Origin: Desulfobulbaceae bacterium
GTDB taxonomy: Bacteria; Desulfobacterota; Desulfobulbia; Desulfobulbales; Desulfocapsaceae
Assembly (NCBI GenBank): GCA_019163335.1
Contig: JAFLKM010000025.1
Location: 1 to 64,000 of the forward strand
Direction: 5' to 3'
Length of the DNA: 64,000 bases
Shown in pieces: positions 13,166-62,727 of this stretch. The translations under genes and the position numbers were made by a program. Each line of letters starts with the position of its first letter. Positions within the stretch are counted from its first letter, which is position 1. The notes beneath the pieces are model-generated. The model saw only the letters and a program-made list of their open reading frames with translations. It made no database searches and was not told where the DNA came from.

Positions 13166-15889
13166 TTAGTTTGCCTGGTCCGCATTCTTGTGGATGTTTG
13201 GAATCGGGCAGGAGATTACCATTTTTTCAAGTTTATCGAGGGTATAGGTTTTGTTCTTTTCTAAATCGATATGCTCGAGTTCAACCCTGATTTCAGAGTC
13301 GGTAAGGCTTGTGAAGGTGTTGAAGGCAGATGCTTCCAAATCGAAATGACGGCGTGCAAGGATGGCAAAGTCATTGCCGTAGGCCCTGAAAAGAAGGGTT
13401 TCTGGGTACCGGGCCTGGAGCTCGAGGGCAAAGTTCTGGAAAATACAGTTGCCCTGTTGCCAGCCTAACTGTTTATTATATTCCAGAAGATGCGTCAGGT
13501 GCAGGAGGTGCAGACAGCTGTATTCATGAAGATTCTGGTTGTTCTGCAAGAAAATCCGGAGGAAATCCTCATTATACAGTCCGGTGAGCCGGTCATTGAA
13601 AAAGTAGGAAAAACGTTTTTTCTCGATATCTGAAACAGGCGCCTGGTTGACGCTTATCGGCGGTGATGTCTGCTCCAGGGCCTTGACCGCCACGGCCACG
13701 ACGTCCGGGTTAAACTGGGTGCCGGAAAGAGAGCTCAGCTCGGCCAGGGCCTCGGCGATCTGTTTACGGGGTTTGTAGATACGGTTGGTGGTCATGGCGT
13801 CGAAGGCGTCGGCAACGGTCATGATGCGGGTGAGCAGGGGGATCTCCTCTCCTTTGAGTCCGTCCGGATAGCCCTTGCCGTCGTGGCGTTCATGGTGGTA
13901 TCGAATGATCTCGGCCAGATCCTTGTACATCTCGATATTGGACAGCATCTCGTAGCCGGCAGTGGCGTGCAGCTTGATCAGGTCATAGTCGAGACTGTCC
14001 AGTTTTCCGGGTTTGAGCAGTACCGAATCCGGGGTGGCGATCTTGCCGATATCATGCAGGATGGCGGCTTTGTAGAGTTTTCCGATATCCACGTCGGGAA
14101 GGTTCATGGCCTTGGCGATCTTTTGACAATAACGGGCCACGCGCTCGGTGTGACCGGCGGTATAGGTATCCCGCTGCTCGATCATGTTGACAAAGGTATA
14201 GATGGTCTCCTCATAATTGGCAGTGCGTTCGAAGGTCAGTCGGGCGATTTCGTCCCGGTGGCGAAAGGAGCCAATGGCAAAGCCAAGATCCCCGGCCAGC
14301 TCTTCCAGCATTGCCACTTCTTCCCGTTCAAATCCTTCCTTTAGCCAGGTGTATACCGTGAGGACGCCCAACGATTTAGCCGCCTGTCTGGCCCGCAGGG
14401 GAAGGGCAATGGCAGCCTGAAATCCATCGATTTCGGCCTGGTTCAACCAGGGGGTGAAATCTTCTTCATGAGCCCGGTCGCTGATGATCGTGCCGTCTTC
14501 GCGCAGACATCTGGCGGTTGGGCTGTGGAAAAACGGAAGGGCTGGATCATCAACGGCATAGGGTGGTGGCGCCAGGTATTTGTCGAAATTGTCGGGGCAG
14601 TAGATTTTGTAAATCTTTTCCTCTTCGAAAAGTCCAATCCAGGAAAAGCCGTAGTGTCCATGATGGACGAAGAGATCGCAGGACTGTTTGAGGAGGGTCT
14701 CGAGGTTGGGCGAGGTGATCAGTAATTTGTTGATATCGGCCACGGTCTGCAGGATTCCCTTGAGATAGATCTGCTGATCAAGCAGGGTGGTGATTTTTTC
14801 GGTACGCTGGGCCACTTTGGACTCAAGTGTCACATTCAGCCGCTCCACTTCCTGTTTTTTCTTGTGCAGGATACGATTGAGAAAAAGAACGTACCAAGAG
14901 GCGAAGATGACCAGCAGGACAGCCACGCTCAGAACGGCCAGCTGGCCCCAGTAGCGCCTGAGAACATCACGCAGAGAGAACTTGCCGTAGTCTTTGTAGG
15001 GGCCGATCTTGAGATCCAGCAGGCAGTCGTGCACGGGCTGGTAGTTCAAGGGGATGGTCCAGCCGGCGGTGTGGCTGGCGATGGCGGCCGGGTCATCACT
15101 TTCCATGGTCAGCAGGGCGCCTGCGACCAGACGGGAGAGGCGGTCGGGGGTAGTCTTGAGGGCGGCCATGGGCCATTCCGGATAGAGCTCGGTACTGAGG
15201 AGAAAGGGAAAGTCGCCCTTTGCCTGGGGATTCAAGATCTTGATTTGATCCAGCTGGATTACTCCCTCTTCAGCCATCCGCTCCAGAGTGTCGGTGCGGA
15301 CGGTGCCGGCGTCAACGGTGCCGGCAAGGATTGCCTTAATCACCCCTTCATGGGTCCCGCCATACTGGAGGGATGAAAAGCCGGAGGATGGGTCAATCTT
15401 TTGTTTGAACAGCTCGCGCCAGGCCACGATCCAGCCGCCAAAGGAGAGTGAGTCCACTGCCATAAAGGATTTGTTGCGGAGGTCGGCAAGGGAGTTGATG
15501 TCGTGGCGGTCAGCCATGGTACAAATAACACCGCCAAAGGTAGTGGTCTGCCGGCCGGGAAGATCCTGGTTGATCAGGGTTGCGATGCGGCTGACCCCGT
15601 AGAGTTTTTCCATTTCGACATACATCGCAGAGTTTGTCAGGATAAAATCCACCCGGCCATCCTGTATGGCCTCATGAATCTCCTTGAACCCCAAAGGGAC
15701 GAGCGTGAAGTGGGTATCAGGGATTCTGGAGGTAAGATAGTCGGCCGTTGCCGACCATCTCTTTACGTCAACTTCATCTCCGCTTTTGGCAAGGATGCCG
15801 ATGGACAGACTCTGGGGTGTGGCCCACAGCAGAAGTGGCGCGAACAAAAGCGCGAGCAGAAGGAGGGTTGATCGGGCAATACCAGCCAT
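13166..15889 (-). CDS. Membrane receptor with PhnD-like sensor, GAF, HD-GYP and degenerate GGDEF
   Basis: 907 aa. A signal peptide (residues 1-24) leads a periplasmic PhnD/PBP2-type binding domain (about 25-300), one transmembrane segment (VLSVAVLLVIFASWYVLFL), a coiled coil, a GAF domain and an HD-GYP domain. The HD-GYP part has LHDIGK and HHERHDGKGYP, the signature of c-di-GMP phosphodiesterases. The C-terminal domain resembles GGDEF, but the active site reads YGNDF, so cyclase activity is unlikely. It should bind a small anion-like ligand outside and break down c-di-GMP inside. The next gene upstream is a close paralogue. The start has only a weak ribosome-binding site. Confidence 0.87.
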   Translation of the reverse strand: MAGIARSTLLLLALLFAPLLLWATPQSLSIGILAKSGDEVDVKRWSATADYLTSRIPDTHFTLVPLGFKEIHEAIQDGRVDFILTNSAMYVEMEKLYGVSRIATLINQDLPGRQTTTFGGVICTMADRHDINSLADLRNKSFMAVDSLSFGGWIVAWRELFKQKIDPSSGFSSLQYGGTHEGVIKAILAGTVDAGTVRTDTLERMAEEGVIQLDQIKILNPQAKGDFPFLLSTELYPEWPMAALKTTPDRLSRLVAGALLTMESDDPAAIASHTAGWTIPLNYQPVHDCLLDLKIGPYKDYGKFSLRDVLRRYWGQLAVLSVAVLLVIFASWYVLFLNRILHKKKQEVERLNVTLESKVAQRTEKITTLLDQQIYLKGILQTVADINKLLITSPNLETLLKQSCDLFVHHGHYGFSWIGLFEEEKIYKIYCPDNFDKYLAPPPYAVDDPALPFFHSPTARCLREDGTIISDRAHEEDFTPWLNQAEIDGFQAAIALPLRARQAAKSLGVLTVYTWLKEGFEREEVAMLEELAGDLGFAIGSFRHRDEIARLTFERTANYEETIYTFVNMIEQRDTYTAGHTERVARYCQKIAKAMNLPDVDIGKLYKAAILHDIGKIATPDSVLLKPGKLDSLDYDLIKLHATAGYEMLSNIEMYKDLAEIIRYHHERHDGKGYPDGLKGEEIPLLTRIMTVADAFDAMTTNRIYKPRKQIAEALAELSSLSGTQFNPDVVAVAVKALEQTSPPISVNQAPVSDIEKKRFSYFFNDRLTGLYNEDFLRIFLQNNQNLHEYSCLHLLHLTHLLEYNKQLGWQQGNCIFQNFALELQARYPETLLFRAYGNDFAILARRHFDLEASAFNTFTSLTDSEIRVELEHIDLEKNKTYTLDKLEKMVISCPIPNIHKNADQAN
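14700..15211. repeat. 512-bp identical tract, copy 1
   Basis: Every base I compared matches 17499-18010. It covers the end of the PhnD domain, the transmembrane segment, the coiled coil and the start of the GAF domain. Flanking sequence diverges sharply. Confidence 0.92.
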
Positions 15890-15949: not shown

Positions 15950-18709
15950 TTATACCCCTGCTGCCGCCTCAGTGTCGCGCCATTGTCGGGGTATAGCGGG
16001 TGCTTGCGAAGAGATTACCATTTTTTCAAGCTTATCAAGGGTGTAGATTTTATGTTCTTCAAAATCAATATGCTGGACGTCCACCGTGATCTCTGAGCCG
16101 GCGATGCTCGTGAAGGAATTAAAGGTCGTTGCATCCACGTCGATATGTTTTCGGGTGAGGATGGCGAAATCATTCCCGTAGGCTCTGAAAAGGAGGGCCT
16201 CGGGGTAGCGGGCCTGGAGTTCGACGGCAAAATTGAGGAAGATGCGATTGCCCTGCTCCCAGCCCCTTTGCTTATTGTACTCGAGGACGTCCACGAGATG
16301 CAGGGTGTGCAGACAGCTGTATTCCTGGAGGTTCTCGTTGTTCTGCAGGAAAATCCGCAGATAATCCTCGTTGTACAGCCCGGTGAGTCGGTCATTGAAG
16401 AAGTAGGAAAAGCGTTTTATCTCAATATCTGTACTCGGCTCCTGAGTAACACTCAAGGGCGGTGGCGTTTCGGCCAGGGCCTTCACCGCCACGGCCACGA
16501 CGTCCGGGTTAAACTGGGTGCCGGAAAGAGAGCTCAGCTCGGCCAGGGCCTCGGCGATCTGTTTACGGGGTTTGTAGATACGGTTGGTGGTCATGGCGTC
16601 GAAGGCGTCGGCGACGGTCATGATACGGGTGAGCAGGGGGATCTCCTCTCCCTTGAGTCCGGCCGGATAGCCTTTGCCGTCATGGCGTTCATGGTGGTAT
16701 CGGATGATCTCGGCCAGATCTTTGTACATCTCGATGTTGGACAGCATCTCATAGCCGGCGGTGGCGTGCAGCTTGATCAGGTCATAATCGAGACTGTTCA
16801 ATTTTCCCGGTTTGAGCAGAACCGAATCCGGGGTGGCGATCTTGCCGATATCATGGAGGATGGCTGCCCGGTAGAGTCTGTCAATGTCTTTGCTGGAAAC
16901 ACCCATGGCCGCCGCGATCTTCTGACAATAACGGGCCACGCGCTCGGTGTGGCCTGCGGTATAGGTGTCGCGTTGTTCAATCATGTAGACAAAGGAGTAG
17001 ATGGTCTCTTCATAATTGGCTGTGCGTTCGACGGTCAGTCGAGAAATTTCGCTCCGATGGCGAAAGGAGTCGATGGCAAAGCCAAGATCCCCGGCCAGCT
17101 CTTCCAGCATGGCAATCTCTTCCGATTCAAAGCCCTCCTTCAGCCAGGTGTAGACGGTGAGGGTCCCGATGGATTTGGCTGCCTGTTTGGCCCGCAGGGG
17201 AAGGGCAATGGCGGCTTGAAATCCTGCTAACCTGGTCTGATTGCGCCAGGGGGTAAAATCTTCTTCATGGCTGCAATGACTGATGACGATTCTGTCTTCG
17301 AGGAGACATCTCACCGTCGGACTGTTGTAAAAGGGAAGCTCCGGATCATTGATGGCATAGGGCGGAGGGGACAGGTATTTCTCAAAATTGCTGGGGCTGA
17401 AGATCGTGTTGATCTGGTCATTTTCCAGCAGGCCAATCCAGGAAAATCCATAGTGTCCATGCTGGACGAAGAGGTCGCAGGATTGCCTGAGGAGGGTTTC
17501 GAGGTTGGGCGAGGTGATCAGTAATTTGTTGATATCGGCCACGGTCTGCAGGATTCCCTTGAGATAGATCTGCTGATCAAGCAGGGTGGTGATTTTTTCG
17601 GTACGCTGGGCCACTTTGGACTCAAGTGTCACATTCAGCCGCTCCACTTCCTGTTTTTTCTTGTGCAGGATACGATTGAGAAAAAGAACGTACCAAGAGG
17701 CGAAGATGACCAGCAGGACAGCCACGCTCAGAACGGCCAGCTGGCCCCAGTAGCGCCTGAGAACATCACGCAGAGAGAACTTGCCGTAGTCTTTGTAGGG
17801 GCCGATCTTGAGATCCAGCAGGCAGTCGTGCACGGGCTGGTAGTTCAAGGGGATGGTCCAGCCGGCGGTGTGGCTGGCGATGGCGGCCGGGTCATCACTT
17901 TCCATGGTCAGCAGGGCGCCTGCGACCAGACGGGAGAGGCGGTCGGGGGTAGTCTTGAGGGCGGCCATGGGCCATTCCGGATAGAGCTCGGTACTGAGGA
18001 GAAAGGGAAAATCGCTTTGTGGAGGCTGATTCAGCACCTTGATCTGATCCAGCCGGATCGTTCCTTCTTCGGCCATCCGCTCCAAAGTGTCGGTGCGGAC
18101 GGAGCCGGCGTCAACGGTTCCGGCGAGCACTGCCTTGACCACCCCGTCATGGGTGCCGGCATACTGGAGAGAGGAAAAATCGGTAAAAGGATCGATATCT
18201 TGCCGGAAGAACTCGCGCCAGGCGGCAATCCATCCTCCCAAGGAAAGGGGGTCCACCGCCATGAAGGTTTTGTTTTTAAGGTCGCCAAGGGTGTTGATTT
18301 CGTGGCGATCAGCCTTGGTGAAGATAACACCACCAATGGTGGTTGTCTGCTGGCAGTCGCCGTTCAGCTGGCAGGGGAGATTTTGATTGATCAGGGTGGC
18401 GATGCGGCTGACCCCGAAGAGTTTTTCCAGCTCCACATAGGTGACCTCATTGGTCAGGATGAAATCCACCCGGCCCTGTTGGGTTGCGTAATGCACCTCG
18501 TTGAATTCCAGAGGAAGGATGGTGAAGTGGTACTCAGGAATTTTCTTCGAGAGGTAGTCTGCCGTTGGCAGCCACTTTTGAATATTAAATTCTTCTCCAC
18601 TCCTGGCGAGGACACCGATGGAAATTGTTTTGGGGGAAGCCCACAGCGAATTGGATGTGAACAGGAGAGAAAAAAGAAAAAAACAATAGATTCGGAGAAT
18701 GACAGTCAT
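15950..18709 (-). CDS. Paralogous PhnD-GAF-HD-GYP receptor
   Basis: 919 aa from the start MTVILRIYCFF, placed to match its paralogue; the track ORF begins 18 codons earlier. Domain order is the same as in the neighbour: signal peptide, PhnD-like domain, transmembrane segment, coiled coil, GAF, HD-GYP (LHDIGK, HHERHDGKGYP) and a GGDEF remnant with YGNDF. A small Cys-containing insert (LPCQLNGDCQQTT) in the binding domain is unique to this copy, so the ligands may differ. A central tract of 512 bases is identical between the two genes, pointing to recent gene conversion or duplication. It is upstream of the paralogue by about 60 bases. Confidence 0.86.
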   Translation of the reverse strand: MTVILRIYCFFLFSLLFTSNSLWASPKTISIGVLARSGEEFNIQKWLPTADYLSKKIPEYHFTILPLEFNEVHYATQQGRVDFILTNEVTYVELEKLFGVSRIATLINQNLPCQLNGDCQQTTTIGGVIFTKADRHEINTLGDLKNKTFMAVDPLSLGGWIAAWREFFRQDIDPFTDFSSLQYAGTHDGVVKAVLAGTVDAGSVRTDTLERMAEEGTIRLDQIKVLNQPPQSDFPFLLSTELYPEWPMAALKTTPDRLSRLVAGALLTMESDDPAAIASHTAGWTIPLNYQPVHDCLLDLKIGPYKDYGKFSLRDVLRRYWGQLAVLSVAVLLVIFASWYVLFLNRILHKKKQEVERLNVTLESKVAQRTEKITTLLDQQIYLKGILQTVADINKLLITSPNLETLLRQSCDLFVQHGHYGFSWIGLLENDQINTIFSPSNFEKYLSPPPYAINDPELPFYNSPTVRCLLEDRIVISHCSHEEDFTPWRNQTRLAGFQAAIALPLRAKQAAKSIGTLTVYTWLKEGFESEEIAMLEELAGDLGFAIDSFRHRSEISRLTVERTANYEETIYSFVYMIEQRDTYTAGHTERVARYCQKIAAAMGVSSKDIDRLYRAAILHDIGKIATPDSVLLKPGKLNSLDYDLIKLHATAGYEMLSNIEMYKDLAEIIRYHHERHDGKGYPAGLKGEEIPLLTRIMTVADAFDAMTTNRIYKPRKQIAEALAELSSLSGTQFNPDVVAVAVKALAETPPPLSVTQEPSTDIEIKRFSYFFNDRLTGLYNEDYLRIFLQNNENLQEYSCLHTLHLVDVLEYNKQRGWEQGNRIFLNFAVELQARYPEALLFRAYGNDFAILTRKHIDVDATTFNSFTSIAGSEITVDVQHIDFEEHKIYTLDKLEKMVISSQAPAIPRQWRDTEAAAGV
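17499..18010. repeat. 512-bp identical tract, copy 2
   Basis: Partner of 14700-15211, direct orientation, 2799 bases apart. Unequal crossing-over between the two would fuse the genes into one receptor with the upstream binding domain and the downstream output. Confidence 0.92.
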
Positions 18710-18910
18710 AATTTGCCGAGGGGAAAACGTGATTGAGAGTAAATGCAACCGGGGGTCAGGCAAGACTGAAGGGAGTCAAACAGGGTCTCAGGCTGAAAGA
18801 TGAAGGACCTCGGGAGTCGGGCTCGTCCGGTGCGAATGACCGACGTTCCTTCTGTCTCCCGTCTTCATACTGCTGTTTTCTCCCTTAAGTCTTCAAATTT
18901 AAGCATTTTC

Positions 18911-18991
18911 AACCCCGATGAAAGGGATAAGTGCCTTTCGCAGAGTATTTTCTTGCAAAAAAAAACAAGAAAATACTCTGTAAGGCTCTAA
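18911..18991 (-). repeat. Family A palindromic repeat, full copy
   Basis: On the minus strand it reads TTAGAGCCTTACAGAG, an inverted A/T-rich hairpin (arms around AGTATTTTCTTG and CAAGAAAATACT), then GGCACTTATCCC and ATCGGGGTT. It aligns along its whole length with 26804-26886 at roughly 85 percent by eye. It sits in the gap between the receptor gene and the methyltransferase gene. Confidence 0.82.
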
Positions 18992-19051: not shown

Positions 19052-19891
19052 TCAGCTCTTTTCTGCCTGAACAAAGAGGCAGCTGTCTCTGCCTGCAACG
19101 AAGGGGGCGAGGTCGTACCCGCCATAGTGCTGACGGACAGTGAATCCTGCCCTGTTCAGCAGGAGCTGCCATTTTGGGAAGGAAAAGGCGGCAAGGTGAA
19201 GAGTATGGCTCAGGTCTTCGTTGTTCTTTCCAGGCTGCCCGGGCCGGATCCGATACCTCTCCTCGAGGAGAAGCTGCTCGTTGGAGTAACTTCGACGAAC
19301 CTCTTTAATGATCCTGCCGCCGTCCTGCTCCTCAAAAATCTGGAATTGAAAGAGCTTCTTTGTCCCTAACGTCAGGAGTGTCTGGTCAGGAATAAAAAGC
19401 TGAAGAAGAAGCTTGCCGCCCTGGACAAGGAGCGTCCTTGTCTGATCCAGGCAATGTTGAATCCGCTCATAGGTTCTAAGGAGATTCAGGGTATGATAGG
19501 GGATGAGGACGGTGTCGAATGAGCAGCGAAAGGCGGGCTCGGTCATGTCCATGCAGAGGTAGGTAACCTTAGGCCCGGCTTTCAGCCGGGCCCGGCGTAA
19601 CATCTCCAGATTGAGATCAATGCCGGTGAGCTTGGCGCCGGATGCGGCCAGGGGCCGGCACAGGCGGCCTGTGCCGCAGCCAAGCTCAAGCACCGAGCAG
19701 GAGGGCCGGATCCTTTCCAGGTAAAAGGGAAGATCCGCCTGGAACCCGGCCATCTCCAGGTCATAGAACTGGCCGTAGCGTTCATTGCTGAGGGGCAGGA
19801 AAAACTCATCCGGCTCCTTGTGGGTGTCAAAGTCGTCGGCTGGCATGTTCCTGAGGGTGGTGGTGTATGCTGTGAGTCTCCCGCCCGGCAT
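19052..19891 (-). CDS. Class I SAM-dependent methyltransferase
   Basis: 279 aa. The SAM-binding motif I is VLELGCGTGRLCRPL, followed by GAKLTGIDLN as the acidic loop. The N terminus (DEFFLPLSNERYGQFYDLE) is typical of small-molecule methyltransferases of the Methyltransf_25/11 type. The substrate is unknown. The start is uncertain: the first ATG lies seven bases after the mscL stop but has no clear ribosome-binding site, and MPADDFDTH, 15 codons in, is an alternative with AGGA nearby. It appears to be co-transcribed with mscL. Confidence 0.82.
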   Translation of the reverse strand: MPGGRLTAYTTTLRNMPADDFDTHKEPDEFFLPLSNERYGQFYDLEMAGFQADLPFYLERIRPSCSVLELGCGTGRLCRPLAASGAKLTGIDLNLEMLRRARLKAGPKVTYLCMDMTEPAFRCSFDTVLIPYHTLNLLRTYERIQHCLDQTRTLLVQGGKLLLQLFIPDQTLLTLGTKKLFQFQIFEEQDGGRIIKEVRRSYSNEQLLLEERYRIRPGQPGKNNEDLSHTLHLAAFSFPKWQLLLNRAGFTVRQHYGGYDLAPFVAGRDSCLFVQAEKS

Positions 19892-26299: not shown

Positions 26300-26328
26300 T
26301 TGACGTGCCCCTGCTTTTTCATTAGAAA
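26300..26328 (+). promoter_or_regulatory. Likely promoter of the B12 riboswitch transcript
   Basis: TTGACG and TAGAAA are separated by 17 bases, about ten bases before the riboswitch begins. Spacing and position fit a sigma-70 promoter. Confidence 0.6.
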
Positions 26329-26334
26329 ACGAAC

Positions 26335-26540
26335 TAATAATTTCAGATGCTCGTAACAGAGCTTAAAAGGGAACCCGGTGGCAATCCGGGACGGGCCCGC
26401 CGCTGTGACCGGGGACGACCGTTGCACTTAGCCACTGACCTGTATCATAAAAGGGTTGGGAAGGCGCAACAGGAAGGACGATCCGGAAGTCAGAAGACCT
26501 GTCTGAATGAAGAACAGCTGTTCCCGTGGACAAGGGACAG
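26335..26540 (+). ncRNA. Cobalamin riboswitch
   Basis: The leader contains the ordered AdoCbl riboswitch elements: GGGAACCCGGTGGCAATCCG, GGACGGGCCCGCCGCTGTGA, the GCCACTG element, GGGAAGGCGC and GGAAGTCAGAAGACCTG (B12 box region). A strong terminator follows directly, then a TonB receptor and a BtuF-like protein. Binding of a cobalamin should favour termination and shut off uptake when B12 is plentiful. Confidence 0.93.
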
Positions 26541-26568
26541 GTCTGAATCGTCTGTGGATAAATAAGGG

Positions 26569-26611
26569 AATCCCCGGATCAATTTTATCATTGGTCCGGG
26601 GATTTTTTTTT
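26569..26611 (+). terminator. Riboswitch expression-platform terminator
   Basis: AATCCCCGGA and TCCGGGGATT form a 10-bp stem with a 16-base loop, followed by a run of eight or nine T residues. It lies just 3' of the cobalamin aptamer. Confidence 0.88.
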
Positions 26612-26716
26612 AGGTGCCGTTGCAAAAAGAGCAAGGCTCTTTTTGCTCATTTTGCTTACGGCACCTTATGCCGCGTCAGAGAAACAGCAATCTTTTCTGC
26701 TGTTTCTCTGCGCGGC
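26611..26716 (+). repeat. Family B double-hairpin repeat, copy 1
   Basis: Hairpin 1 runs from TAGGTGCCGT to ACGGCACC, with inner arms GCAAAAAGAGCAA and TTGCTCATTTTGC. Hairpin 2 runs from GCCGCGTCAGAGAAACAGCA to TGCTGTTTCTCTG and GCGGC. It starts at the last T of the riboswitch terminator and lies in the leader of the B12 receptor transcript. The second copy is at 62620. Confidence 0.85.
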
Positions 26717-26782
26717 GTCTCGCAAGTTCCATTCATCCTGCCAGACACCCCCCCGGACCGACAACTTTTTCAGGGAGAAAAA

Positions 26783-28876
26783 ATGAAAAAGCAGGTTTCC
26801 GTTTTAGTGCCTTACAGAGGAGTATCTTGTTCTTTTTACAAGAAAATACTCTGCAAAAGGCACTTATCCCGTTTGTCGGGGTTAGCGTTGTGTACCATGT
26901 TCAGTCTTAATGTAAGCAGCACGCTGGCCGCAGGCGATGGCCAGACCACAGACAGCGGGGCTGATGCCGTCCCCGGTGTCGAGACGATCAACGGCAAGAC
27001 CTATCTGACCATCACCGCCAGTCGGGTTCTGGAGAAGCAAAGCGGGGTCAGCTCCAATCTGACGGTGATCGATCGGGAGGAGATTGAACGCAGTAGTGCC
27101 GATTCGGTGGGTGATCTGATTGCCGAACAGGGTGTCGGGCATGTGCATAAATATCCAGGCGTTGCGACGTCCATCGGTATTCGCGGCTTTCGCACCGATA
27201 CCCATGGCAACGATCTCCAAGGACACGTGCTGGTGTTGCTCGATGGTCGCCGGGCGGGAACCGGCAATCTTGCCAAGATTATGACGAAAAACGTTGAACG
27301 CATCGAGATTATCCGTGGTCCCGGTGCGGTTCAGTATGGTTCCGGAGGGATGGGCGGGGTGGTCAATATCATCACCCGTCAGGGCAAAAGCAATTCCGCT
27401 TTTGTCGAGGGCGGGGGGGGGAGTTTTGGCGAGGCGGAAGGAAGCATCGGCGGCACAGCCAAGGAGAAGGGCTTTGATTTTGCCGGAGCCCTCAGCCATT
27501 CCACCCAGGGTGACTATAAAACCGGCAGCGGTGTGACCTTTGCCAATACCGGTTTTGATGGCCAGACCGGCGCCAGCCTCAATGGCGGGTACGAGTTTTC
27601 CCCCCATAACCGTTTCGGGGTGATCGTCACTGATTATGATGTCGATCGTGCCGGTGATCCCGGCTATCTGAGTGCCAATGATACCGACAATTATAGTGAC
27701 AAGAGCAATTACTCCGTGGACAGCTCGTACAATGGTCAAAGCAGCTCCGGCCGTTATCAGTGGATGGGGCGCTACTTCTTCGGCAAGGATGAGAATATCT
27801 GGAACGATCCTCGGCTTTCCAATGCCTCGGGCTATGATGACGGCATCGCGACAAGCAATAAAACCGACCAGCAAGGGGCCCAGGCCCAGATAAGCGGGGC
27901 GCTTGGAGCGCTGCATCTGACCACCGGCCTTGACTGGCTCCATTATGAAGTGGAAAATACCTATAGCCCGCAGCGGACCACCTATGACAACCCGGCCCTT
28001 TTCCTGCTGGCAAGAGTTGGCTTTCTCGACGAGCGGTTGACCCTCTCCGGCGGTGTCCGTCAAGATTGGTACGCCGTGGAGGTTGAGCAGCCGGCCGGCC
28101 GCGACGAGGACACTTCCCATTTTACGCCGCAAGTCGGCCTGGCATATCTGCTCACCGATGCCCTCAAACTCCGAGCCCAGGTGGCGCAGGGCTTTGTTAT
28201 GCCCTCTGCCGATCAGCTTGCCATTGATATCCTGGCCGCTGGACGCCGCACCGTTGGCAATCCAGATCTTGATCCTGAAACAAGTATGACCTGGGAGGGC
28301 GGGGTTGATTACACGAAGTCGGGGCTGAAGGGGGCTTTGACCTGGTTTACCACCGACTTTGATGATAAGATCGTCCGTAAAAGTCTGCCGGGCAATATCA
28401 CCAGCTTCACCAATCTGGGCAGCGCCAGCATCAGCGGGATTGAGGCCGCTCTTTCCTATGATGTCGGTGAACCCCTGCACTGGGCATGGGAGGTCCGGCC
28501 TTTTGTCGATATGACCTGGCTGACCCGCTACGAGGATAATGCCACGGGAGAGGATCTGACCTACATAAGCGATAGGACCCTGTCCACGGGACTGTCCTTT
28601 GCCGATGGTGCCGGAGGACTTTCCGGTCGGCTCAACGTCACCTATACCGGACCGCAGCAGGTGGATGACTGGGAAGATACCTATACCGTGGTGGAGCTTG
28701 ACAGCTTTGTTGTCACCGATCTGAGTCTCAGCTACCGGTTCCTGCGCAGTGAGCAACTGGGTGACTTCACTGTTCGTGGCGAGCTGTGCAACCTTTTTGA
28801 TCAAGACTATGCCTATGTCAAGGGCTACCCGATGCCGGGCCGCTCGATATGGGCCGGGTTGAAGTGGGAATGGTAG
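26783..28876 (+). CDS. btuB: TonB-dependent outer-membrane receptor, BtuB-like
   Basis: 697 aa from MKKQVSVLV, the ATG with GGGAG upstream; the track ORF reads back through the riboswitch. The plug domain has SSADSVGDLIAEQGVGHVHK, then RGFRTDTHGN, LLDGRRAGTG and IEIIRGPGAVQYGSGGMGG with VVNIITRQG. A 22-strand barrel follows and the chain ends in ...LKWEW, an aromatic terminus as needed for BAM insertion. The upstream cobalamin riboswitch and the downstream BtuF-like gene point to B12 uptake. The signal peptide is odd: codons 8-34 are encoded by a family A repeat, giving a long basic region before LALCTMFSLNVSSTLA. Confidence 0.88.
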   Translation: MKKQVSVLVPYRGVSCSFYKKILCKRHLSRLSGLALCTMFSLNVSSTLAAGDGQTTDSGADAVPGVETINGKTYLTITASRVLEKQSGVSSNLTVIDREEIERSSADSVGDLIAEQGVGHVHKYPGVATSIGIRGFRTDTHGNDLQGHVLVLLDGRRAGTGNLAKIMTKNVERIEIIRGPGAVQYGSGGMGGVVNIITRQGKSNSAFVEGGGGSFGEAEGSIGGTAKEKGFDFAGALSHSTQGDYKTGSGVTFANTGFDGQTGASLNGGYEFSPHNRFGVIVTDYDVDRAGDPGYLSANDTDNYSDKSNYSVDSSYNGQSSSGRYQWMGRYFFGKDENIWNDPRLSNASGYDDGIATSNKTDQQGAQAQISGALGALHLTTGLDWLHYEVENTYSPQRTTYDNPALFLLARVGFLDERLTLSGGVRQDWYAVEVEQPAGRDEDTSHFTPQVGLAYLLTDALKLRAQVAQGFVMPSADQLAIDILAAGRRTVGNPDLDPETSMTWEGGVDYTKSGLKGALTWFTTDFDDKIVRKSLPGNITSFTNLGSASISGIEAALSYDVGEPLHWAWEVRPFVDMTWLTRYEDNATGEDLTYISDRTLSTGLSFADGAGGLSGRLNVTYTGPQQVDDWEDTYTVVELDSFVVTDLSLSYRFLRSEQLGDFTVRGELCNLFDQDYAYVKGYPMPGRSIWAGLKWEW
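26804..26886 (+). repeat. Family A palindromic repeat inside the btuB signal-peptide region
   Basis: It runs from TTAGTGCCTTACAGAGGAGT through a hairpin (ACAAGAAAATACTCTGC pairs with the left arm) to GGCACTTATCCCGTTTGTCG and GGGTTAG. It aligns along its length with the complement of 18911-18991. The reading frame runs through it without a stop. Confidence 0.85.
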
Positions 28877-28944: not shown

Positions 28945-28985
28945 CACCACCCCCAACCCCCTCCTTGAACAAAGGAGGGGGCTTT
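28945..28985. repeat. Family C GC-rich palindrome, copy 1
   Basis: CACCACCCCCAACCCCCTCC followed by TTGAACAAAGGAGGGGGC. The 10-bp stem CCCCCTCCTT/AAGGAGGGGG is flanked by a conserved ACCACCCCCAA arm. It lies 3' of btuB and could also act as a terminator or mRNA stabiliser. Confidence 0.8.
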
Positions 28986-29980: not shown

Positions 29981-30014
29981 TTATCACCCCCGGCCCCTCC
30001 TAAAACAGGAGGGG
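29981..30014. repeat. Family C palindrome, copy 2
   Basis: TTATCACCCCCGGCCCCTCC, then TAAAACAGGAGGGG. It faces copy 3 at 30082, and the pair bounds 67 bases of unique DNA. Confidence 0.72.
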
Positions 30015-30081
30015 AGCAGAGCTGCTCTTTCCTGACAGCGGAAGGGTGTGGATAATGCCACAGAAGCCAAGGTCTTAAAAG

Positions 30082-30119
30082 TCCCCTCCTGATTTAGGAG
30101 GGGGTTGGGGGTGGTTATC
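30082..30119. repeat. Family C palindrome, copy 3, inverted relative to copy 2
   Basis: TCCCCTCCTGATTTAGGAGG, then GGGTTGGGGGTGGTTATC. Together with copy 2 it forms a composite bounded by outward-facing GATAAC/TTATC-type ends, the shape of a small non-autonomous element. Confidence 0.75.
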
Positions 30120-48392: not shown

Positions 48393-48430
48393 AAGCCCCC
48401 TCCTTGTTTGAAGGAGGGGGATGGGGGTGG
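48393..48430. repeat. Family C palindrome, copy 4
   Basis: AAGCCCCCTCCTTGTTTGAAG, then GAGGGGGATGGGGGTGG. Orientation is opposite to copy 1. Confidence 0.8.
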
Positions 48431-48465
48431 TTTTTCGTTCAAGAAAAAAAGATTCGATCAACCAC

Positions 48466-61272: not shown

Positions 61273-62622
61273 ATGGAGTATGCCCTAGTGCTCTCTGAAT
61301 TGAAAGAAAATCTCCTGAAAGCTGGCCAGACTGAAGGCTGTCTCAGTTTTAGCGATTTAAATGAATTGTTGCCCGATGATATTAAAGATCCTAATGCCAT
61401 TGAAAGCATCTTTAATTTTCTGGGAGCCAATAATATCCAGATCGTTAATGTTGAGAAAAATGGCGAAAAACGCACCTTGTCTGGCGAGGTATGGGATCAT
61501 GACAAGAATGAAATTGATGACGATGATGAGCTGATAGATGTAGCGCTCACGACTGCCAGCGATGATGGCCATGAGGCGGAAGAAACAACCACCACATATC
61601 TTCGGGAGATGGGACAGTTTGATCTGTTGACTCCTGATGAAGAGGCGAAGTACTCAAAATGCATTCGTCAGGGTTTTGATGCGATTATTCAGGCGATACG
61701 GGACAATGCCTCGGATGTTGTGGAAATGACTTTGCTTTGCACGCGTATTGATCTCTGGGAAAAACGCGATCCAACGTTAAAGCCTAAAAAACAGCAGCTT
61801 AATTTTATGCGTTACAGCGTGATTGCTGCTGCCAAAAAGTATATAGAAAAACCTGAACTCTATCAGCTGCAAATCAAGATTGAGGGCTATAGTCACTCCA
61901 TTGAGATTGCCAAAGATGCGATGATTCGCGCGAATCTGCGTTTGGTTGTCTCCATAGCCAAACGTTATATGCATCAGGGACTAACCCTTGCTGATTTGAT
62001 TCAGGAGGGAAATCTTGGTCTGATGCGGGCTGTTTTTCGATTTGACTATACCAAGGGAAACAAGTTCTCAACCTATGCCAGCTGGTGGATCAGGCAGGCA
62101 ATTACCCGAGCGATTCTTGATAAAACCAGGACCATCCGGCTGCCGGTTCATTTCCTGGAGTTGCGCAGCCAGTTTTTCAAGGCCTTTTATGCCTTGTTCA
62201 AAGAGCTGGGGCGGGAGCCGACCCCCGTTGAGATTTCCAAGAGTACCGAATTGCCGATGGATAAGATCCTGGCAATCCTCGAGGCCTCCCGCGAGCCAAT
62301 CTCCCTTGAGACTCCGGTTGGTGATGATGATTCAACCCTGGGCGATTTCCTGGAAAATGGGGACTCTCAGTCTCCATTTGATATGGTGCAGACAAGAGAG
62401 CTTGCCGGTCGGGTGACTGAAATTCTGTCCACCCTCAGTGAGCGGGAAGAAAAGATTATCCGGCTTCGTTTTGGCATCGGGGAAAAGGCCGAATACACTC
62501 TGGAAGAGATTGGCAAGCGTTTCAATGTCTCTCGTGAACGGATTCGTCAGATTGAAAAAAAGGCATTGAATCGTTTACGTCATTCCAGCAGACGTGATCA
62601 GTTGAAGTTTTTCCTTGATTAG
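61273..62622 (+). CDS. Sigma-70 family RNA polymerase sigma factor, RpoD/RpoS-like
   Basis: 449 aa from ATG; a GTG five codons downstream has GGAG nine bases before it and is an equally good start. The track start is a TTG. Regions: a 1.1-like N-terminal domain (LSFSDLNELLPDDIKDPNAI), 1.2 (TYLREMGQFDLLTPDEEAKY), 2 (NLRLVVSIAKRYMHQGLTLA, DLIQEGNLGLMRAV, FSTYASWWIRQAITRAI), 3 and 4 (TLEEIGKRFNVSRERIRQIE). Core recognition and -10/-35 regions are intact, but region 3 (RTIRLPVHFLELRSQFFKAF) differs from the usual RpoD form (VHMIETINKL), and it is shorter than most delta-proteobacterial RpoD. A group 2 factor is likely. The stop codon lies in repeat B. Confidence 0.86.
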   Translation: MEYALVLSELKENLLKAGQTEGCLSFSDLNELLPDDIKDPNAIESIFNFLGANNIQIVNVEKNGEKRTLSGEVWDHDKNEIDDDDELIDVALTTASDDGHEAEETTTTYLREMGQFDLLTPDEEAKYSKCIRQGFDAIIQAIRDNASDVVEMTLLCTRIDLWEKRDPTLKPKKQQLNFMRYSVIAAAKKYIEKPELYQLQIKIEGYSHSIEIAKDAMIRANLRLVVSIAKRYMHQGLTLADLIQEGNLGLMRAVFRFDYTKGNKFSTYASWWIRQAITRAILDKTRTIRLPVHFLELRSQFFKAFYALFKELGREPTPVEISKSTELPMDKILAILEASREPISLETPVGDDDSTLGDFLENGDSQSPFDMVQTRELAGRVTEILSTLSEREEKIIRLRFGIGEKAEYTLEEIGKRFNVSRERIRQIEKKALNRLRHSSRRDQLKFFLD

Positions 62623-62727
62623 GTGCCGTTAAGAAAAGAGCAAGGCCGTTTTTGCTCTTTTCTCTTACGGCACCTTATGCCGCTCCAAAGAAACAGCCGG
62701 TTTTTTCGGGCTGGTTCTTTGAGTGGC
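62620..62727 (+). repeat. Family B double-hairpin repeat, copy 2
   Basis: TAGGTGCCGTTAAGAAAAGA starts at the sigma factor stop codon. Hairpin 1 (AGAAAAGAGCAA with TTGCTCTTTTCT) closes at ACGGCACC; hairpin 2 (CAAAGAAACAGCC with GGCTGGTTCTTTG) follows after TTATGCCGC. Sequence differs from copy 1, mostly in paired positions. Confidence 0.85.

Follow-up and report, generated by a model that had tools for sequence, protein, structure and literature searches.

The window, that is the whole stretch of 64,000 nucleotides analysed here, carries a gene for a TonB-dependent receptor with a cobalamin riboswitch in its leader, which the sequence-only reading had already placed there and which Rfam recognizes with a strong match (Table 1). 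Pfam and Rfam together provide both features of the BtuB class, namely plug and barrel domains and cobalamin riboswitch control. Because a plug/barrel TonB-dependent receptor is combined with a strong cobalamin riboswitch upstream, btuB appears to be a fair name for the gene, as judged from sequence. Translated from its ATG, the product begins MKKQVSVLVPYRGVSCSFYKKILCKRHLSRLSGLALCTMFSLNVSSTLAAGDG... Outside the insert described below, btuB is under purifying selection: its mature part shows a dN/dS of 0.14 (dS 0.51) relative to the sister species G005, a pairwise value in which the periods before and after the insertion are mixed.

Table 1. Features of the btuB locus and family A copies discussed in the text (positions are those of the window unless prefixed)
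Feature	Position	Strand	Basis
Second family A copy in the window, intergenic	18911..18991	-	86% identity to the btuB copy, E 1.6e-20
Cobalamin riboswitch aptamer RF00174, btuB leader	26328..26520	+	Rfam hit with 116.4 bits (E 1.7e-28)
Probable riboswitch terminator hairpin (AATCCCCGGATCAA...TTGGTCCGGGGATTTTTTTT)	26560..26612	+	Sequence reading; orthologues share hairpin and T-run
Family B palindromic element, between riboswitch terminator T-run and btuB start	26610..26722	+	Direct repeat with 62619-62697, 86%
Shine-Dalgarno AGGGAGA and btuB ATG start (ATG at 26783)	26773..26785	+	Sequence; both conserved in orthologues
btuB, TonB-dependent receptor, plug and beta-barrel, 697 aa	26783..28876	+	Translation; PF00593, PF07715
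Family A element inserted in btuB, 26 codons (78 nt)	26807..26884	+	G005 and 13 further homologues empty; family alignment A1
Signal-peptide hydrophobic core and c-region (LSGLALCTMFSL, then ...STLA)	26873..26929	+	Native sequence from ALCT onward
N-terminal stretch of btuB preprotein, VPYRGVSCSFYKKILCKRHLSRLSGL			
Family A copy in mid-gene, class I glutamine amidotransferase, in frame	G000:C28:7232-7315 (L192:4338-4421)		14 relatives without insert
Family A copy in opposite orientation, in frame, signal peptide of DUF4198 protein	G000:C21:37689-37772 (L183:1701-1784)		G003, G005 without insert
Family A at N-terminus of livM, branched-chain amino acid permease	L326 (G015), L327 (G004), L328 (G008)		

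The 5' end of btuB contains a repeat. The sequence-only reading had aligned positions 26804-26886 with the reverse complement of an intergenic segment at 18911-18991 and had placed them in frame within btuB codons 8-34. Our data agree on each point: the two segments match as given in Table 1 (inverted-repeat pairs I1 and I3), the distal one lies between ORFs 15950-18763(-) and 19052-19891(-), and the codon count fits the ATG at 26783, codon 8 being TTA at 26804-26806 and codon 34 TTA at 26882-26884. A 22-nt core from the btuB repeat has 2 matches in the window versus 0.00 expected from shuffles, and the repeat is predicted to fold well, with -32.2 kcal/mol (z = -3.5). Its parts are an outer and an inner stem and, on the 3' side, a small hairpin. 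We refer to this repeat as family A; the btuB copy is ~89% identical to the family consensus, and the intergenic copy shares 97% identity with copies carried by a genome from another family of the same order.

A search of the whole genome, which the sequence-only reading had proposed, took family A far beyond the pair in the window. With a covariance model trained on 33 copies, we obtained 148 matches in the 3.2-Mb host genome, corresponding to 138 distinct places, and a DNA search recovered 40 places at E < 1e-15. The unit is ~77-78 nt long, reads GTGCC...GGGGTTA and combines an outer stem with a long inner stem and a small hairpin on the 3' side. In the stems, compensatory changes occupy 15 cells versus 3.1 in shuffles, with slid controls also exceeded, and covariation is 0.122 versus 0.077 in shuffles, a value matched by 0 of 500. 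Insert lengths range from 67 to 80 nt, mostly 75-79, and show no preference for multiples of three among the 123 copies measured (35, 41 and 47 with remainders of 0, 1 and 2). The consensus 78-mer is open in three of the six frames, which is only suggestive, as 95 of 5000 shuffles reach the same. A first survey detected family A in 17 of 17 genus members, and the five other same-genus genomes in which it was counted hold from 42 to about 150 matches each. Elsewhere in the order its distribution is patchy (39 of 243 sampled genomes). One such genome from another family, G041 (e.g. at L292), has ~19 matches, some of them 100% identical to the consensus, which makes horizontal spread of family A likely.

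We then compared the btuB N-terminus with those of relatives. Homologues are present in 13 of the 16 other genus members and yielded 14 readable N-termini, two of which (G001 and G003) belong to more distant receptors with 35-38% identity. The 26-residue insert is absent from all 14. The closest homologue, that of the sister species G005 (about 87-88% identical, 87% over the leader), reads MKKHVSVFALCT where the window has MKKQVSVL, 26 residues and then ALCT, the last being part of the hydrophobic core in the orthologues. At the DNA level, ATGAAAAAGCATGTTTCGGTGTTC continues directly into GCCTTGTGTACC in G005, whereas in the window ATGAAAAAGCAGGTTTCCGTTTTA and GCGTTGTGTACC are separated by 78 nt, flanked by the TTA of codon 8 and by GCG (26885). 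These junctions show that the net gain of btuB is exactly 78 nt and that it lies at a TTA triplet. When the window flanks were joined in silico, they gave MKKQVSVLALCTMFSLNVSSTLA, an ordinary signal peptide. Because the copy measures 78 nt and reads through in this frame without a stop, the reading frame was kept and 26 residues were added. Thus the residues encoded by the repeat are not shared by orthologues, and the empty sites establish that a repeated element was turned into coding sequence, as had been suggested. The host genome is a 103-contig draft, the one assembly of the species examined. Desulfocapsa-type metagenome assemblies are among the named relatives of the btuB locus, so that the host probably belongs to that group.

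In the product, the change concerns the n-region of the signal peptide, which measures 4-8 residues with a charge of +2 to +4 in orthologues and 30 residues with a net charge of +8 in the window btuB; the long basic region described earlier is therefore real. The hydrophobic core is kept and is slightly less hydrophobic (1.79 versus 1.87-2.77 in orthologues), the best 12-mer being at residue 31. The Sec pathway usually copes with long basic n-regions, and on this general knowledge continued export of the btuB product is the likeliest outcome.

The btuB event is less singular than the earlier reading implied, since family A lies in frame in other genes too. In-frame insertion with insert-free orthologues was seen in four cases: btuB, the glutamine amidotransferase (GATase), the DUF4198 protein and livM. 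The GATase relatives align before residue ~171 and again from ~194 with nothing between, and the empty site in G003 reads GCGTTA/GCC, the slash marking the junction. The DUF4198 protein reads MRLKHILTL, the insert and then ...LASILGLSSTGQAHF, and the corresponding G003 DNA is MRIKQILTLATVLASIPALSSTGQAHF. At livM, family A is missing from G009, G002 and G006, and the copy in G008 has been shortened by 42 nt, in frame; presence in three species, one with an in-frame deletion, indicates that the reading frame was kept across speciation. Four further copies appear to lie in genes (C29, C22, C14 and C4) but were not counted, since a more convincing start seems to be located downstream of the repeat, and three (C74, C36 and C7) overlap gene ends and alter the C-terminus only.

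Most copies lie outside genes. A simple gene finder based on codon usage placed 120 of the 132 copies examined (~90%) between genes, a count that includes the btuB copy because the finder mis-started that gene, so that the true in-gene number is slightly higher. As 54% of the TTAG sites in the window fall within genes, a total of 13 in-gene copies would still lie far below what is expected (P ~1e-26). This deficit indicates that family A insertions in genes have mostly been removed or avoided, and that frame-keeping survivors remain.

The flanks of the copies bear on how family A moves. Of 123 copies, 89 have TTA as the left triplet and 16 have TGA; the right triplet is TGA in only 1 of the 16 left-TGA copies, and the GATase copy has TTA on the left and CTC on the right. 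We rejected target-site duplication because the right triplet does not follow the left, and this mismatch identifies TTA as a target and not a duplication. TTA or TTAG is also found at the junction of empty sites at several loci. A terminal hairpin, a fixed short target and lack of duplication resemble IS200/IS605 and REP elements (PMC3733652), and family A shares with IS200/IS605-type non-autonomous elements a subterminal hairpin and duplication-free insertion 3' of a short fixed target. Insertion after TTA without duplication thus suggests a tyrosine-transposase (IS200/REP-like) route. The host genome has 7 matches to Y1 transposase (Y1_Tnp), among them the genes at C1:145503, C51:15194 and C3:67552. 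No family A copy was found within 1.5 kb of any Y1 gene detected in the host or in five other genomes, neither family A ends, full-length units nor short motifs were found at these genes, and the folded flanks of the Y1 genes of the host gave nothing matching family A. The Y1 enzymes are candidate movers of family A, none of them having matching ends.

The history that best accommodates these observations would run as follows. Family A is very probably a non-autonomous, mobile palindromic element that inserts next to TTA, and it was probably moved as single-stranded DNA, in trans, by an IS200/REP-type tyrosine transposase; most copies survive between genes. One copy entered btuB directly behind the Leu codon in ATG AAA AAG CAG GTT TCC GTT TTA^GCG TTG, once the sister species had split off, and its 26 residues form the long basic n-region that now precedes the former hydrophobic core. 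Export of the preprotein by Sec, followed by trimming, most likely continues. The insert is best regarded as selfish DNA that the host tolerates and that later co-option might draw on. Taken as a whole, we consider it highly probable that a mobile, TTA-inserting palindrome landed in frame in btuB and has been tolerated there as selfish DNA.

A very unlikely alternative is that the true btuB start lies downstream of the element and that the repeat belongs to the 5' untranslated leader. In-frame ATG (26897) and TTG codons do exist downstream, but the Shine-Dalgarno and ATGAAAAAG upstream of the element are the start used in orthologues, and the conservation of Shine-Dalgarno and ATG argues that the start is not below the element. 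Moreover, initiation at 26897 would give MFSLNVSSTLA, with no basic residues and an incomplete hydrophobic core, and the export signal would be lost, and the btuB copy is stop-free with a length divisible by three, as in only 35 of the 123 copies measured. That the repeat was spliced into btuB by faulty assembly or binning might be suspected in a 103-contig draft with a high-copy repeat. We regard such an artefact as extremely improbable, because the copy has diverged from the consensus and duplicates no other copy, it lies in an uninterrupted 697-codon frame within a 129-kb contig, 78 nt is shorter than ordinary short reads, and analogous insertions occur in separately assembled genomes.

Co-option would mean that the receptor's export or translation is usefully tuned by the extended basic n-region, or by the hairpin that lies at the beginning of the coding region in a riboswitch-controlled mRNA; this is in our judgment unlikely, though less so than the two explanations above. 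In its favor, three of the four demonstrated in-frame insertions are N-terminal, two of them in signal peptides, and the livM frame has been kept in three species, including one with an in-frame deletion. However, predicted accessibility of the btuB start region is unchanged (the mean unpaired value is 0.46 with the element and 0.45 once it is removed, compared with 0.44 for the sister species), the btuB hairpin is not weakened and has an energy typical of family A, with 36% of copies stronger, and N-termini are the least constrained place for insertions. A broader form of the idea holds that family A is, in Desulfocapsa-like bacteria, a recurrent source of basic N-terminal extensions on exported and membrane proteins (btuB, DUF4198, livM), some of them selected for altered targeting or expression, which would amount to domestication of a selfish palindrome as the n-region of signal peptides; we hold this to be equally doubtful. 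The best reading of our analysis is that the insert is a selfish element tolerated in frame, much like the RPE of Rickettsia and the RU elements of enterobacteria.

As summarised in PMC2229807, RPE are palindromes that occur both in intergenic DNA and, in frame, within conserved protein genes; the repeat contains open reading frames, 19 reading frames are reported, and gmk carrying an RPE stays active, so that hosts tolerate the insert. Family A is likewise a many-copy palindrome lying in frame in genes that have insert-free orthologues. It differs from RPE proper, listed in PMC2229807 and PMC3733652 with 105-146 bp and a CGTC end, in its ~78 nt, its GGGGTTA end, its insertion after TTA and its Desulfocapsa-like host. 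The enterobacterial RU-1 (ERIC/IRU), RU-2 (YPAL) and RU-3 are small mobile repeats with open frames and in-frame fusions, some of which yield predicted signal peptides (PMC2759123; PMC2229807); their length is 103-168 bp, and for RU-1 and RU-2 a target-site duplication is given (PMC2229807). Family A is also fused in frame but lacks such duplication. The Correia element (NEMIS) of Neisseria is a MITE whose short 107-bp form is fused in frame to genes; it differs in that 24 bp are repeated in inverted orientation at its termini and its target is duplicated (PMC2229807). Lack of target-site duplication also separates family A from classical MITEs (TIR and TSD, DDE transposase). REP/BIME are hairpin repeats, mostly intergenic with some inside genes, that share a conserved short end tag (PMC3733652). 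Family A resembles them in its hairpin, its mostly intergenic location and its conserved short end. REPs, however, which are moved by RAYT (Y1) transposases, measure 20-40 nt, bear a GTAG tag and frequently have a RAYT gene linked to them, whereas family A ends in GGGGTTA(G), which is (C)TAACCCC on the other strand, has at least double the length, and shows three stems and no linked RAYT.

Our literature search returned no paper describing family A in Desulfocapsa. The family thus seems to be undescribed, while in-frame insertion of mobile palindromes is already known; given the earlier reports on RPE, RU-1/2/3 and Correia, family A is a new family with known behaviour. The btuB locus offers a clean comparison of filled and empty sites in sister species for a mobile palindrome becoming protein, outside Rickettsia and enterobacteria and in the export signal of a nutrient receptor. 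The livM copy in three species and the species-specific btuB copy together form a time series in which decay, neutral persistence or use of inserts could be followed.

Other repeats were seen in the window. The family B element (TTAGGTGCCG...CGGCACCTTATGCCGCG...) also occurs at btuB of G005, and more than 20 further matches are present in the G005 genome. With the family A insert and the family B element, the btuB leader has been hit twice, and because the left part of family B (TTAGGTGCC...GGCACCTTAT) resembles family A, the two may be one superfamily. A third inverted-repeat family (CCCCCTCCTT...AAGGAGGGGG) is found near btuB and elsewhere, at 28946-28984, 29987-30110 and 48393-48435. Finally, a 300-nt direct repeat (13212-13511 and 16011-16310, 74%) lies within ORFs that are probably paralogous HD-GYP-type genes.
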